Source: Polyangiaceae bacterium (GTDB lineage: Bacteria; Myxococcota_A; Polyangia; Polyangiales; Polyangiaceae). Taken from it: a stretch of 52,313 bases of DNA. The notes below the pieces were generated by a model that worked only from the letters and a program-made list of their open reading frames with translations, had not been told where the DNA came from and did no database searches. The stretch spans positions 1 to 52,313 of the forward strand of contig JADLFU010000150.1 in NCBI GenBank assembly GCA_020849655.1, in the 5' to 3' direction. This document shows positions 9,463-17,436 of the stretch, piece after piece. The position numbers were made by a program, and so were the translations under genes. Each line of letters opens with the position of its first letter. Position 1 is the stretch's first letter.

Positions 9463-9546
9463 CCAACCCTTACGTGAGCGTGAGGTCTTGACCTCCGGCG
9501 CGAGATCGCTACAAGGCGATCAACCTCTCGCGTACGTAAGGGTTGG
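9463..9546 (+). promoter_or_regulatory. isc promoter framed by two inverted MerR-type operator copies
   Basis: Two copies of a 23-bp site face each other: 9463-9485 and the reverse complement of 9524-9546, matching at 20 of 23 positions. Their outer 13 bases (CCAACCCTTACGT / ACGTAAGGGTTGG) match perfectly. Each contains an imperfect dyad, best in the left copy (CCTTACG-TGAG-CGTGAGG), of the CTTACG/CGTAAG kind seen for some MerR-family proteins. Between them lie TTGACC (9488-9493) and TACAAG (9510-9515) with 16 bp spacing. A second dyad, GAGGTC-TT-GACCTC (9482-9495), overlaps the -35. The arrangement suggests autoregulation, possibly by looping; the promoter call is by inspection. Confidence 0.6.
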
Positions 9547-9548
9547 AA

Positions 9549-10103
9549 ATGACCGCCTCCGCCTCGCGCCTCCGCCTCCCGCTCGCCTCGTGCGACGACC
9601 CAGCAGATCAGCCGCCGCTGCACGTCGGCGATCTCGCGCGCGAGGTCGGCCGGAGCGTGCGGGCGATCCATCTGTACGAGGAGCTCGGGCTGCTGAAGAG
9701 CGCGAGGTCGAAGGGGCGCTTCCGGCTGTTCGACGCGGACGCGGTGATGCGCGTGCGCTGGATCGCGAAGCTCCAGGACCTCGGCCTGTCGCTCGGCGAG
9801 ATCCAGACGATCATCCGCAGCGTCGACGAGGCCGCGTCCGCGCCGTCCGCGATGAAGCTCCTGCGCGACACCTACCGCGACAAGCTCGCGGCGACCGCGG
9901 CGCAGATCGCGCGGCTGCGGGCCCTCGAGAGCGAGCTGTCGATGAGCCTGTCGTACCTCGAGACGTGCGACACGTGCGACCCCGCGCGCCTGATGCACGC
10001 CTGCTCGTCGTGCGATCTGCACGACTGTCGCCCCCCGCCGGAGCTCGTCGCGGGGGTGCACGCCGGGCCTCGGCCCGCCGCGCCTCAACCGGAGAACCGC
10101 TGA
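9549..10103 (+). CDS. MerR-family regulator with a C-terminal cysteine cluster, head of the isc operon
   Basis: A predicted 184-residue regulator. After a 22-residue N-terminal extension comes a MerR winged-helix domain ([39 protein letters not shown]), then a dimerisation coiled coil (about 90-135). A C-terminal CX2CX8CX2CX4C cluster follows (CDTC...CSSCDLHDC). SoxR, also MerR family, binds a [2Fe-2S] cluster through a differently spaced cysteine set, so metal or Fe-S sensing is a reasonable inference. It occupies the place of the Rrf2-type IscR found in front of isc operons elsewhere. The ATG at 9549 is chosen over TTG at 9543. The stop is two bases before the iscS ATG, so it is co-transcribed and likely controls the operon. 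Confidence 0.88.
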
Positions 10104-10105
10104 TC

Positions 10106-11326
10106 ATGGCCCCGAAGCTGCCGATTTACATGGATTATCACGCGACGACGCCGCTCGATCGCCGCGTGCTCGACGCGATGCTGCCGTACTTCTCCGAGAC
10201 GTTCGGCAACGCGGCGAGCCGGAGCCACGTGTTCGGCTGGCGCGCCGAGGAGGCCGTCGAGATCGCGCGCGAGCGCGTCGCCAGGCTGGTCGGCGCCGAC
10301 AGCGCGAAGGAGATCGCGTTCACGTCCGGCGCGACCGAGTCCGACAACCTCGCCATCAAGGGCGTCGCCGAGTTCTACAAGGACAAGGGCGACCACATCA
10401 TCACCTCCGTCATCGAGCACAAGGCCGTGCTCGACTCGTGCAAGCGCCTCGAGAAGCAGGGGTTCCGGGTCACGTACCTCGGCGTCGACCAGCAGGGCAG
10501 GGTGTCGCCCGACGACGTCGCCCAGGCCATCACCGACAAGACCATCCTCGTGTCGATCATGCTCGCGAACAACGAGGTCGGCACCGTGCAGCCGATCGCG
10601 GAGATCGGCGCGATCACGCGCGCGCGCGGCGTGCTCTTCCACTGCGACGCCGTGCAGGGCGTCGGCAAGGTGCCGTTCGACGTCTCGAAGATGAACGTCG
10701 ACCTCGCGTCGATCACCGCCCACAAGATCTACGGCCCGAAGGGCGTGGGCGCGCTCTACGTCCGGCGCTCGAAGCCGCGCGTGCGGCTCGTCGCGCAGAT
10801 GGACGGCGGCGGCCACGAGCGCGGGATGCGCTCCGGCACGCTGAACGTCCCAGGCATCGTGGGCTTCGGGCGCGCGGCCGAGCTGCTCGTCACCGAGGGC
10901 GCGGCCGAGGCCGAGCGGCTGACCGCGCTCCGCGAGCGGCTGGCGAAGAAGCTCTTCCAGATCGAGGCGGTCACCCTCAACGGCCACCCGACGCTGCGCC
11001 TGCCCGGCAACCTCAACATCGCGTTCTCGTACGTCGAGGGCGAGTCGATGATGATGGCGATAAAGGACGTCGCCGTCTCGAGCGGGTCGGCGTGCACGAG
11101 CGCGAGCCTGGAGCCCAGCTACGTGCTGCGCGCGATGGGCGTCGGCGAGGAGCTCGCGCACTCGAGCATCCGGTTCGGCCTCGGGCGGTTCACGACCGAG
11201 GAGGAGATCGACTACGTGGGGCAGCTGGTCACCGACAAGGTGCGCATGCTGCGCGACATGAGCCCGCTCTGGGAGATGGCCCAGGCCGGGATCGATCTGA
11301 AGACCGTCGAGTGGGCGGGACACTGA
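10106..11326 (+). CDS. iscS: Cysteine desulfurase IscS
   Basis: A 406-residue class V aminotransferase-fold enzyme that takes sulfur from L-cysteine and passes it as persulfide to the scaffold IscU. The N-terminus ([12 protein letters not shown]) is standard. Lys207 in [11 protein letters not shown] is the Schiff-base lysine for pyridoxal phosphate, and Cys330 in [14 protein letters not shown] is the mobile-loop sulfur carrier. The loop length and C-terminus mark it as the IscS rather than the SufS type. The gene is immediately followed by iscU. Length matches E. coli IscS (404). Confidence 0.97.
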
Positions 11327-11342
11327 GCGAAGGAGCACACGG

Positions 11343-11747
11343 ATGGCCTACAGCGAGAAAGTCCTCGAGCACTACGAGAACCCCAAGAACGTCGGCACGC
11401 TCGACAAGGAGGCGGACGACGTCGGCACCGGCCTGGTCGGCGCGCCCGCGTGCGGCGACGTGATGCGCCTGCAGATCAAGGTCTCCGACGAGGGCGTGAT
11501 CGAGGACGCCAAGTTCAAGACCTTCGGCTGCGGCTCGGCGATCGCCTCGTCGTCGCTCGCGACCGAGTGGCTGAAGGGCAAGCGCGTCGAGGAGGCCGAG
11601 ACGATCAAGAACAGCATGATCGCCGAGGAGCTGAACCTCCCGCCCGTGAAGATCCACTGCTCCGTCCTCGCGGAGGACGCGATCAAGAGCGCCATCGCCG
11701 ACTTCAAGCAGAAGCAGGCGGCGAAGCGGGCGCTCTCGGGGGGCTGA
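11343..11747 (+). CDS. iscU: Fe-S cluster assembly scaffold IscU
   Basis: A 134-residue scaffold on which [2Fe-2S] clusters are built. The conserved ligands are present: Cys37 and Asp39 (PACGDVM), Cys63 (FGCGSAIASSS), and His105-Cys106 (KIHCSV). LPPVK at 99-103 is the recognition motif for the chaperone HscA, which is encoded three genes downstream. It follows iscS by 16 bases with a good ribosome-binding site (AAGGAG). Size matches the family. Confidence 0.97.
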   Translation: MAYSEKVLEHYENPKNVGTLDKEADDVGTGLVGAPACGDVMRLQIKVSDEGVIEDAKFKTFGCGSAIASSSLATEWLKGKRVEEAETIKNSMIAEELNLPPVKIHCSVLAEDAIKSAIADFKQKQAAKRALSGG

Positions 11748-11749
11748 CG

Positions 11750-12127
11750 ATGATGGCCCCCACCGAGACCCACGATCCCGCGCCGAGGCCGTCGCCCTCG
11801 GTGACGCTCTCGCCTCGCGCGGTCGAGATGGCGAAGGCGCGCCTCGCGAAGCGCGGCACGCCCGGCGCGGCGCTGCGGCTCGGCGTGAAGGGCGGCGGCT
11901 GCTCGGGGTTCGGCTACGTGATCGAGTTCTCCGACGAGCCGCCGCGCGATCGCGATCGCGTGTTCGAGTTCGACGGTCTGCGCGTCTACGTCGACAAGAA
12001 GAGCCTCGTGTACCTCGCCGGCACGACGCTCGACTGGGAGCAGTCGCTCATGAAGGCGGGGTTCAAGTTCCTCAACCCGCAGGAGGCCGCGTCGTGCGGC
12101 TGCGGGCACTCGTTCACCGTGAAGTGA
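11750..12127 (+). CDS. iscA: A-type Fe-S carrier IscA
   Basis: A 125-residue A-type carrier of the HesB/IscA family, thought to transfer iron or clusters to apo-proteins. It carries the three invariant cysteines: Cys51 in GGGCSGFGY and Cys116/Cys118 in SCGCGHSF. The first 17 residues form a Pro-rich extension absent from E. coli IscA. Start choice lies between adjacent ATGs at 11750 and 11753; the first is only two bases after the iscU stop. The position between iscU and hscB is the classical operon order. Confidence 0.93.
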   Translation: MMAPTETHDPAPRPSPSVTLSPRAVEMAKARLAKRGTPGAALRLGVKGGGCSGFGYVIEFSDEPPRDRDRVFEFDGLRVYVDKKSLVYLAGTTLDWEQSLMKAGFKFLNPQEAASCGCGHSFTVK

Positions 12128-12133
12128 GCCGCG

Positions 12134-12640
12134 TTGGCAGACCCGTTCACCACGCTGGGCCTCGCGCCGACCTACTCGCTCGATCTCGCGTCGCTCGACG
12201 CGCGCTACCACGAGCTGTCGAAGGTCGTGCACCCCGATCGCCAGGCCGGCAAGGCGCCGGCCGAGCGGCGGCGCGCGCTCTCGCTCGCGGTCGACGTGAA
12301 CTCCGCGTACCGCGCGCTCCGCGACCCGATCCGTCGCGCCGAGGCGCTGCTCGCGAGGCGGGGCGTGAGCCACGAGCGCGCCGCGCCGACGCCCGAGTTC
12401 CTGATGGAGGTGATGGAGCTGCGGGAGTCGCTCGCGGACGCCCGCCTGGCGAGAGATCTCGACCGGGTGCGGCGCATGGCGGACGACGCGCGCGCCCGGC
12501 GAGCGCGCGTCACCTCCGCGCTCGGCCCGCTGCTCGACGCCGGCCGCGACGCCGACGCCGTGCCGCTCGTGGCCGAGCTGCGGTACCTCGCGAGGTTCCT
12601 CGACGAGGTGCGGGTGATCGAGGAAGAGGCGGGCGCCTGA
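12134..12640 (+). CDS. hscB: Fe-S co-chaperone HscB
   Basis: A 168-residue J-domain co-chaperone that delivers IscU to HscA and stimulates its ATPase. The J domain occupies residues 1-75 with HPD at 33-35 (KVVHPDRQ). The C-terminal three-helix domain that binds IscU follows. It opens with TTG, as no ATG gives the conserved N-terminus (DPFTTLGLAPTYSLD). It is six bases after iscA and three bases before hscA. Length compares with 171 in E. coli. Confidence 0.92.
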   Translation: MADPFTTLGLAPTYSLDLASLDARYHELSKVVHPDRQAGKAPAERRRALSLAVDVNSAYRALRDPIRRAEALLARRGVSHERAAPTPEFLMEVMELRESLADARLARDLDRVRRMADDARARRARVTSALGPLLDAGRDADAVPLVAELRYLARFLDEVRVIEEEAGA

Positions 12641-12643
12641 GCG

Positions 12644-14548
12644 ATGCTGTTCGACATCTTCGACCCGAAGGCGGCGCCTCGCCCGATCGGCATCGATCTC
12701 GGCACGAGCAACTCGCTCGTGGCGTGCGTGCGCGACGGCCGCGCCGCGTGCCTCCTCGACTGCGACGGCGCCGCGCTGCTCCCGTCGGTCGTGCACTACG
12801 GGCCGCACGGCCGCGTCGTCGTCGGTGGCGACGCCGCGCGCCTGCAGGGCGAGCACCCCGAGGACACCGTCACCAGCGTGAAGCGCTTCATGGGGCGCGG
12901 CGCCGACGATCCCGAGACCCGCCGCCTCTCCTCCCTGCGCTTCGCGACGCCGTCGACGCCCGAGGAGGCGCGCGTCGTCCGGTTCTGCGTCGCCGACCGC
13001 GTCGTCTCGCCCGTCGAGGTGTCGGCCGAGATCCTGCGGACGCTCGCGGCGCGCGCGCGCGACGAGCTGAACGGCGTCGGCGGCGTCGTGATCACGGTGC
13101 CCGCGTACTTCGACGACGCGCAGCGCCAGGCCACGAAGGACGCCGCGCGGCTCGCCGGCCTCGAGGTGCTCCGCCTGCTGAACGAGCCGACCGCGGCGGC
13201 GCTCGCGTACGGCCTCGAGAAGAAGCAGAGCGGCACCTTCGCGGTGTACGATCTCGGCGGCGGCACGTTCGACGTGACCGTCCTGCGCCTCGACGACGGC
13301 GTGTTCCACGTCCTCGCGACCGGCGGGGACAGCGCGCGCGGGGGCGACGACTTCGACCGCGCGCTCGCGGAGGCGCGCGTGCTGCCCGCGCTCGGCGTCG
13401 CCGACCCGGGCCCCGACGTGCGCCGGCTCGCGCTCGACCTCGCGCGCCAGGCGAAGCACGCGCTCACCGATCACGCCGAGGTCGAGGTCGCCCTCCCGCG
13501 CGACGGCGCGCCCGCGCTCGTGGTCACGCGGGCGGAGCTCGACGGGCTCGTGAGGCCGATCATCGAGCGCACGGGCGCCGCGTGCCGGCGGGCGCTGCGC
13601 GACGCCGAGCTGTCGCCCACGGAGCTCACCGGCGTCATCCTCGTCGGCGGCGCGACGCGGGTGCCGGCGGTGCGCGCGTACGTCCGCGAGCTGTTTGGTA
13701 CGGAGCCGCTGTGCGATCTGGATCCAGACCAGGTCGTCGCGCTCGGCGCGGCCGCGCAGGCGGAGCTGCTCGCCGGCGACGGCGCGATGGACGACGTGCT
13801 CCTGCTCGACGTCCTGCCGCTGTCGCTCGGCATCGAGACGATGGGCGGCGTCGTCGACAAGATCCTGCCGCGCAACACCACCGTCCCGGCGGAGGCGCGC
13901 TCGACGTTCACGACGTACGCCGATCGCCAGACGGGGTTCGAGCTGCACGTCGTCCAGGGGGAGCGCGAGCTCGCCGCCGACTGCCGCTCGCTCGCGCGGT
14001 TCACCCTGCGCGGCATCCCGCCGATGCCGGCCGGGATGGCCCGCCTCGAGGTGACCTTCTCGGTGGACGCCGACGGTCTCTTGCATGTCTCCGCGCGCGA
14101 GCTGACGACGGGCCTGGTGCAGCGCGTGGAGGTCAAGCCGACGTACGGCCTCGACGACGACGCGGTCGAGCAGATGCTCCTCGCCGCGCTCGATCACGGC
14201 GAGGACGATCTCGCGGCGCGGCGCCTCGTCGAGGAGCGCGTCGAGGGCGCCCGCGTGGCGCAGGCGACCCGCCAGGCGCTCGCGGCCGACGCGGCCCTGC
14301 TGCTGCCGGGCGAGCAGGCGACGATCGACGCGGCGATGGCGGCGCTCGTCGCGGCGATCGACGGCGACGACGCCGGGAGGATCCACCTCGCCTGCGAGGA
14401 TCTGCAGCGCGCGACCCACGCCTTCGCGGGCCGGCGGATGGACGCCGCGATCGCGGCGGCGATCTCCGGCAGGCAGCTGGGCGACGTCGAGCGCTCGGTC
14501 GAGGGCGCGAAGGGCGTCGAGGCTCACCTCGCCGCCGAGCGGAGCTGA
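12644..14548 (+). CDS. hscA: Fe-S chaperone HscA (Hsp70 family)
   Basis: A 634-residue Hsp70 specialised for IscU. The ATPase domain (1-375) has [42 protein letters not shown] and [14 protein letters not shown]. The linker reads [17 protein letters not shown], and the substrate-binding beta domain and a helical lid follow to the end. Unlike the second Hsp70 in this window it has a normal short linker and lid. It acts with HscB in ATP-driven release of the cluster from IscU; the LPPVK target motif is present in IscU. The gene sits between hscB and fdx. Confidence 0.95.
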
Positions 14549-14551
14549 CGA

Positions 14552-14881
14552 ATGGCGAAGATCAAGTTCGTGAAGCAAGGGCTCGAGGTCGAGGCCAAGC
14601 CGGGCGAGAGCGTGCTCGACGCGGCGCGCGCCGTCGGCGCCCCCGAGGGCTCGCTGTGCGGCGGCGTCTGCGCGTGCTCGACGTGCCACGTGTACGTCCT
14701 CTCCGGCGCCGCGTCGCTCAGCGAGATGGAGGACGACGAGAACGACATCCTCGACAAGGCGTTCGACGTCCGCGCGACGTCGCGCCTCGGCTGCCAGGCG
14801 CGCGTCCGTGGCGACGGCACGATCGAGGTCGAGATCAGCCGCGAGTCGCTCGAGGCGTACGAGGCCGAGCACCCGAGCTGA
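14552..14881 (+). CDS. fdx: ISC-type [2Fe-2S] ferredoxin
   Basis: A 109-residue adrenodoxin-type ferredoxin that supplies electrons for cluster assembly. The ligands are Cys36, Cys42, Cys45 and Cys81 in the order C-x5-C-x2-C-x35-C (LCGGVCACSTCHVYV). The additional Cys40 is also present in E. coli Fdx. The acidic stretch MEDDENDIL matches the partner-binding face. It is the last gene of the operon, three bases after hscA; the gap before lon is about 70 bp. No iscX is seen downstream. Confidence 0.95.
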   Translation: MAKIKFVKQGLEVEAKPGESVLDAARAVGAPEGSLCGGVCACSTCHVYVLSGAASLSEMEDDENDILDKAFDVRATSRLGCQARVRGDGTIEVEISRESLEAYEAEHPS

Positions 14882-14961
14882 CGGCGCGCGGGCGCGATGC
14901 GCCATGACTTCGCGCCACGTTGTATTAGGCTGCGTGCGCCGAGCGCTCCTCGGTGATCTCC

Positions 14962-17432
<2,471 letters not shown>

Positions 17433-17436
<4 letters not shown>

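Follow-up and report, generated by a model that had tools for sequence, protein, structure and literature searches.

What regulates iron-sulfur (Fe-S) cluster assembly in a bacterium whose isc operon begins with a MerR-family gene? In Escherichia coli, the operon is headed by the gene of IscR, a protein of the Rrf2 family, and what is known of feedback on Fe-S assembly comes mainly from Rrf2 proteins. The question is raised by a stretch of 52,313 nucleotides from a Polyangiaceae bacterium (NCBI GenBank assembly GCA_020849655.1, contig JADLFU010000150.1; the whole stretch is called the window below), in which a gene for a cysteine-rich MerR-family protein, merR, directly precedes iscS. We are nearly certain that the merR product is a MerR-family regulator devoted to Fe-S assembly and that it also controls its own expression. 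The source genome comprises 6.56 Mb in 307 contigs and is 96.9% complete, the window being contig 150.

A MerR-family gene heads the isc operon

The operon occupies positions 9549 to 14881 of the plus strand in the order merR-iscS-iscU-iscA-hscB-hscA-fdx, and the TGA of merR ends at 10103, leaving a gap of two bases before the iscS start at 10106. Coordinates and profile matches thus agree with the first-pass annotation, which had described a MerR-fold gene two bases 5' of iscS, followed by iscU-iscA-hscB-hscA-fdx.

9549-10103, plus strand: merR, MerR-family regulator of 184 amino acids (Pfam); AlphaFold model with a mean predicted local distance difference test (pLDDT) score of 85
10106-11326, plus strand: iscS, cysteine desulfurase (TIGR02006, 646.5 bits, cut-off 643.2)
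11343-11747, plus strand: iscU, scaffold (TIGR01999, 225.4 bits, cut-off 192.4)
11750-12127, plus strand: IscA-type carrier (TIGR00049, 107.3 bits, cut-off 58.8)
12134-12640, plus strand: hscB, J-domain cochaperone with a TTG start (TIGR00714, 71.4 bits, cut-off 46.75)
12644-14548, plus strand: hscA, Hsp70-type chaperone (TIGR01991, 790.5 bits, cut-off 708.55)
14552-14881, plus strand: fdx, 2Fe-2S ferredoxin (best NCBIfam model TIGR02007 with 85.9 bits, under its cut-off of 132.1; Pfam Fer2 passes)

IscS, IscU, HscB, and HscA score above the cut-off of the NCBIfam model of their own name; the IscA model TIGR02011 gives 108.3 bits, under its cut-off of 150.6, and the carrier passes the broader TIGR00049 only. 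The merR product exceeds the Pfam cut-offs of MerR_1 (PF13411), MerR-DNA-bind (PF09278), and MerR; Pfam yields MerR models only, and the Rrf2 domain PF02082 has no match in the protein or elsewhere in the genome. With a MerR helix-turn-helix (HTH) and a dimerization helix, the protein has the fold of the MerR superfamily.

The pairing of merR with isc is conserved in Myxococcota

We followed the pairing in three samples: the source genome with 58 relatives (59 genomes, MerR matches at an E value of 3.1e-25 or better), 377 genomes of the phylum Myxococcota (strong MerR, E value of 2e-36 or better), and the best 80 of 283 confirmed relatives from GTDB (the named loci). The closest named records, within these best 80 of 283, are Myxococcota and include Sorangium cellulosum, Polyangium, Minicystis rosea, a Byssovorax metagenome-assembled genome (MAG), and many broadly named MAGs.

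Across the 377 genomes, a strong MerR occurs in 126 and an IscU over cut-off in 138, and 114 genomes hold both (Fisher p = 3e-57, a value that ignores relatedness). In 112 of these 114 genomes, the two genes lie 1249 to 1825 bp apart on one strand; G262 and G265, the remaining two, carry them on separate contigs. The named loci tell the same story, with iscS 3' of merR in 79 of 80 and the 80th running to a contig end. The linkage that the first-pass annotation had proposed to look for in relatives is thus nearly invariant, and the pairing is no chance neighborhood. In the set of 59, 47 genomes hold a MerR homolog, with one match each, and 46 an IscU over cut-off; 45 have both, 2 have MerR without IscU, 1 has IscU without MerR, and 11 have neither, all three one-gene genomes being cases of contig ends. 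Furthermore, iscS is next to merR in each of the 30 loci fetched from this set.

Twelve genomes of the phylum hold a strong MerR without an IscU over cut-off. Three of them (L133, L135, and L138) have a MerR-headed isc operon with iscS, iscA, and hscB or hscA matches and iscU undetected in between, four (G039, L131, L143, and L144) have a locus that ends at a contig end, three (L139-L141) have a NifS-like gene next to merR, one (L142) has SUF, and one (L137) carries just an unlinked MerR paralog. This paralog is a second MerR carried by genomes of one family of the phylum, f38 (L127, L128, L129, L130, L132, L134, L136, and L137); it is not linked to isc, has a similar cysteine loop and a palindrome of the ACGTNNACGT type, and shows a related site over the 99.5% shuffle point (see below) in 8 of 8 upstream regions. 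By eye, the paralog gene lies 3' of a deoxynucleoside-kinase-like gene in L129, L134, and L137. In the window, a lon protease gene (14953-17436) lies directly 3' of fdx; a conserved link to lon was rejected, as lon is seen only in the window and in the same-genus locus L039 among the 80 named loci, whose flanks are at most 8 kb and often shorter.

A conserved palindrome overlaps the predicted transcription start

The region 9463-9546, for which the first-pass annotation had proposed footprinting, holds a promoter-like element pair between two copies of a conserved 22-bp palindrome, ACCCTNACG-N4-CGTNAGGGT, whose consensus in related upstream regions is ACCCTNACGCATGCGTNAGGGT (27 bits).

9463-9546, no strand: promoter-operator region; the arm CCAACCCTTACGT (9463-9475) recurs, perfectly inverted, as ACGTAAGGGTTGG (9534-9546)
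9466-9487, no strand: putative upstream operator O1, an imperfect 22-bp palindrome abutting the -35 element (matrix score 19.6, second-best plus-strand position of the window; 2 mismatches to consensus)
9488-9493, plus strand: predicted -35 element TTGACC (TTGAC is present in most related upstream regions)
9510-9515, plus strand: predicted -10 element TACAAG, after a spacer of 16 bp (promoter scoring)
9522-9543, no strand: putative downstream operator O2, 6 bp past the -10 element and expected over the transcription start (matrix score 25.3, best plus-strand position of the window; 2 mismatches; same placement in most relatives)

Scored against dinucleotide shuffles, the palindrome lies over the 99.5% shuffle point in all 81 loci (the window and the 80 named loci) and above every shuffle in 79. 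This count, which supersedes one over 110 loci, is not independent because those 110 loci, near-duplicates included, served to train the matrix; the held-out and negative sets are independent. The held-out set consists of 18 loci, linked to ISC or SUF, that come from elsewhere in the phylum (other orders, classes, and groups); in all 18, the palindrome scores above every shuffle. None of the 14 regions taken from 5' of isc or suf operons that lack this MerR (eleven iscS and three sufB) scores above zero, and the palindrome is absent 5' of nine sister MerRs (0/9) and of three MerRs linked to a NifS-like gene (0/3). We take the palindrome to be the probable binding site of this MerR.

Of 12 chosen genomes, 10 have a single site with no more than one mismatch, always 5' of merR, against one control site in the 12 genomes together; G018 and G021 are without any such site. 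At two mismatches, there are 27 forward sites and 27 for the reversed control, and this lack of excess gives no sign of further targets.

Promoters, which in these counts are predictions, were called in 59 of the 81 loci. The site starts 0 to 25 bp past the -10 element in 48 of the 59 (49 when scoring carries no preference for 17-bp spacers); it lies against the -35 element in 18 and is centered in the spacer in 1, these classes overlapping with the downstream one. The spacers are mostly ordinary, at 16 to 18 bp in 50 of 59 with scoring that favors 17 bp and in 42 of 59 without, when the peak is still at 17 (29 promoters). Since the promoters have mostly ordinary spacers and the site lies mostly past their -10 element, occlusion, and therefore repression, is the plain reading, and the merR product most likely acts as a repressor. 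A classical activator, in which oxidation untwists an over-long promoter as in SoxR, would fit the MerR fold, the first rank of SoxR in a Foldseek search with the MerR model, and the typical placement of MerR proteins within spacers of 19 to 20 bp (PMC9909328). We consider it very unlikely here, as the site is spacer-centered in at most 1 of the 59 predicted promoters and most spacers are of ordinary length.

The putative regulator occupies the place of Rrf2 proteins and is retained in one SUF operon

An IscR encoded elsewhere could in principle control this promoter, as the first-pass annotation had noted. A search of the 96.9%-complete genome for Rrf2 (PF02082) gave no match, with a control that detects 13 of 14 known genomes; SufB likewise gave no match in this genome. 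None of the 59 genomes has a protein that passes the IscR cut-off, and weaker Rrf2 matches occur in 44 of them.

SufB over cut-off was found in 10 of the 59 genomes, nine of which lack this MerR. All nine have an Rrf2 match beside sufB by coordinates (in G047, where a contig breaks, beside a fragment of sufB), an arrangement confirmed directly in three fetched loci (L158-L160) and resembling the risR-suf arrangement described for Myxococcus xanthus (PMC9973013). The tenth, G017, has MerR-isc and SUF together. Of the 12 among these 59 genomes that are without a strong MerR, nine are these SUF genomes; in G031, IscU lies at a contig end, and neither IscU nor SufB passes its cut-off in G025 and G057.

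In one genome of the phylum (G336, locus L142), the MerR gene heads a SUF operon, merR-iscA-sufB-sufC-sufD-sufS, and IscU was not found at an E value of 1e-30. In a quick tree, in which two long branches (SoxR and L184) were flagged, L142 groups with two rows that are linked to ISC, one of which shares its family code, with a Shimodaira-Hasegawa-like approximate likelihood ratio test (SH-aLRT) support of 99. This one genome is a candidate case of a regulator that follows the function and not the machinery.

A four-cysteine loop follows the dimerization helix

The cysteine-rich segment that the first-pass annotation had reported is present in the window protein, at the end of the long helix.

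9966-10028, plus strand: cysteine-rich loop CX2CX8CX2CX4C, codons 140-160 (Cys 140, 143, 152, 155, and 160)

Among 125 distinct orthologs linked to ISC or SUF, 124 retain all four loop cysteines and 102 have a histidine three residues past the fourth. Only the four cysteines of the reported motif hold for the family: the fifth cysteine, considered as a family-wide ligand, was rejected, being found at its spacing in just 39 of the 125. In the AlphaFold model, a long helix (98-138) is followed by the cysteine loop, placed after the dimerization helix as in SoxR, and then by a short helix (165-171) in a C-terminal tail, P(E/D)LVAG. In alignment A2, which comprises 65 rows (the window plus 64 of the 80 named loci; L012 is absent from another alignment, A1), P164 never varies, and L166, V167, and G169 are each shared by at least 90% of the rows.

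What does the loop hold? Three answers other than a cluster have to be weighed. The protein could be a metal sensor of isc that binds a thiophilic ion such as zinc or iron(II) in its four-cysteine (and histidine) site, with no cluster, and responds to metal supply or toxicity. Paired CX2C-X8-CX2C elements do look like zinc knuckles, the top sequence matches in the PDB are Bacillus MerR, CadR, and PbrR, and the NCBIfam scores for CadR, CueR, and MerR lie near that for SoxR. This possibility is nevertheless rather unlikely in our judgment, given that 112 of the 114 genomes with both genes have the Fe-S machinery as the partner, as does the lone genome with SUF in place of ISC, and that the sole near-perfect operator lies at isc in 10 of the 12 chosen relatives. 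Alternatively, the site could hold structural zinc only, and an Isc protein could read the P(E/D)LVAG tail or the loop, free assembly capacity then setting repression. The tail is conserved and modeled as a helix (block pLDDT of 87) even though it is part of neither the DNA-binding domain nor the long helix, which would suit such a contact; retention of the regulator in the SUF operon of G336 speaks against it, and a contact specific to IscU is unlikely there because the MerR is kept without an IscU match. We regard this mode of control as improbable. Finally, the pairs of CX2C in the regulator of an oxidant-sensitive pathway would also be compatible with a metal-free thiol-disulfide redox switch, which seems to us hardly probable, as four cysteines with a mostly kept histidine look more like a ligand set.

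We favor an Fe-S cluster as the probable signal of the merR product. The loop would carry a cluster rather than zinc, and the holo form would be the one that binds DNA.

VIA Z values tie CadR (12.9 over 112 residues, 2.4 A) with SoxR (12.8 over 117 residues, 4.3 A). The SoxR model TIGR01950 gives 52.7 bits, under its cut-off of 116.9, and the NCBIfam equivalog models for CadR-PbrR, CueR, MerR, and ZntR each remain more than 100 bits under theirs. Pairwise, identity to SoxR is 30% over 105 residues, in an alignment that stops before the cysteine loop. The low similarity and the different cysteine spacing suggest that this MerR arose independently of SoxR.

Discussion

On balance, we lean toward a complete explanation in which the merR product is an autorepressor dedicated to Fe-S assembly, with the holo form repressing the operon. 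A MerR dimer would bind the 22-bp palindrome over the transcription start and block its own promoter, and in some species, that of the window included, a second copy against the -35 element may also be bound. Past the dimerization helix, the loop of four cysteines would most likely hold an Fe-S cluster supplied by the assembly machinery itself. When clusters are plentiful, holo-MerR would repress the operon; when iron is scarce or the cell is under oxidative stress, MerR would lose its cluster or never receive one, and the operon would be derepressed.

Several observations weigh against this explanation. At the promoter, the isc sites of the source genome tie with two other places at two mismatches, although the matrix ranks the isc sites first among these four 2-mismatch places (25.3 and 19.6 against 14.9 and 11.8, a ranking that leaves out places with three mismatches); no promoter was called in 22 of the 81 loci, and 6 of the 59 called promoters have no site nearby. 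At the level of the protein, one ortholog (L194) lacks one of the four conserved cysteines, the loop is modeled at low confidence (pLDDT of about 55), and sequence profiles score Bacillus MerR (66.7 bits) and CadR (65.8 bits) above SoxR (38.5 bits). A sister MerR family, which in the nine loci fetched (L180-L188) is not linked to isc and has no isc operator, has a similar CX2C-Xn-CX2C loop, and the loop alone is therefore no proof of Fe-S binding. At the level of linkage, 24 of the 138 IscU genomes of the phylum are without a strong MerR, and in three loci (L139-L141) an orthologous MerR lies directly 5' of a NifS-like cysteine desulfurase gene, without the palindrome.

Thirteen of the 24 IscU-only genomes were fetched. 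Rrf2 lies directly 5' of iscS in three (L145, L148, and L155), two loci (L153 and L157) are truncated by a contig end, and in the other eight no regulator was found with one MerR and one Rrf2 query. Family f25 (L146, L150, L151, and L156) has no recognized regulator 5' of its isc operon and, by eye, an HscB-like protein with an extra N-terminal CX2C...CX2C segment. Other neighborhoods seen by eye are a nitrilase-like protein after the NifS-like gene (L140 and L141) and folE-like and LON-N-like genes near the sister MerR (L183 and L188). The sister MerR also occurs in genomes with SUF (L181 and L186).

How does the proposed regulator compare with known ones? IscR and RisR are both Fe-S proteins and exert feedback repression on an Fe-S assembly operon, as we propose for this MerR, but they have the Rrf2 fold and three cysteines. 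Holo-RisR represses isc and suf in M. xanthus, is encoded in the suf operon, and recognizes the core motif GAC-N7-GTC (PMC9973013), which differs from the MerR palindrome; no target of the MerR other than isc stood out in the 12 relatives scanned. The RisR footprint at isc covers most of the -10 element and the putative start site (PMC9973013), near the position of O2 here. SufR of cyanobacteria and mycobacteria (so named in PMC6034842) is likewise a regulator with an Fe-S cluster that a suf operon has recruited (PMC9973013), and its description there as having an ArsR-like HTH sets it apart from the MerR of the window. Like the window protein, SoxR, a [2Fe-2S] member of the MerR family, carries its cysteine loop after the dimerization helix; E. 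coli SoxR has CX2CXCX5C (Cys 119, 122, 124, and 130) where the protein studied here has CX2CX8CX2C, and the palindrome here lies outside the spacer. The same placement and the linkage to Fe-S assembly also separate it from CadR, PbrR, MerR, and CueR, whose DNA-binding and helix regions are alike but whose model cut-offs it does not reach. The protein would work like IscR or RisR without belonging to their family and is a MerR protein yet not a SoxR. Among the papers listed in the literature searched, which excluded preprints and most subscription journals, we recognized no MerR-family regulator of isc or suf, and the term MerR has no occurrence in PMC9973013.

The first-pass annotation had proposed an independently evolved homeostatic regulator of Fe-S assembly in the place of IscR. 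Of the three outcomes that it named as refuting this, the two examined did not occur, as no IscR was found elsewhere and merR strongly co-occurs with isc. The nearly invariant linkage, the lack of an Rrf2 match, the conserved operator, and the retention in one SUF genome sustain the homeostatic role, and the independent evolution is a suggestion drawn from sequence comparison. We hold evenly balanced the broader proposal that, after Rrf2 (IscR and RisR) and the ArsR-like SufR, MerR is another fold recruited as an Fe-S homeostat, serving in much of Myxococcota as a dedicated isc holo-repressor with probably one target, acting by start-site occlusion, and kept across a change from ISC to SUF.

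If this is true, an unrelated fold has converged on one wiring rule, in which the product of the operon, the cluster, switches the operon off, and the repertoire of MerR proteins would widen from activation by promoter distortion to repression at the start site. The merR product is a candidate homeostat for a genome without a detectable Rrf2 regulator, and its simple circuit lends itself to asking what cells must sense to balance cluster supply. With ISC swapped for SUF under one regulator, it becomes possible to test whether the status of the cluster serves as the signal rather than a part of one machinery.

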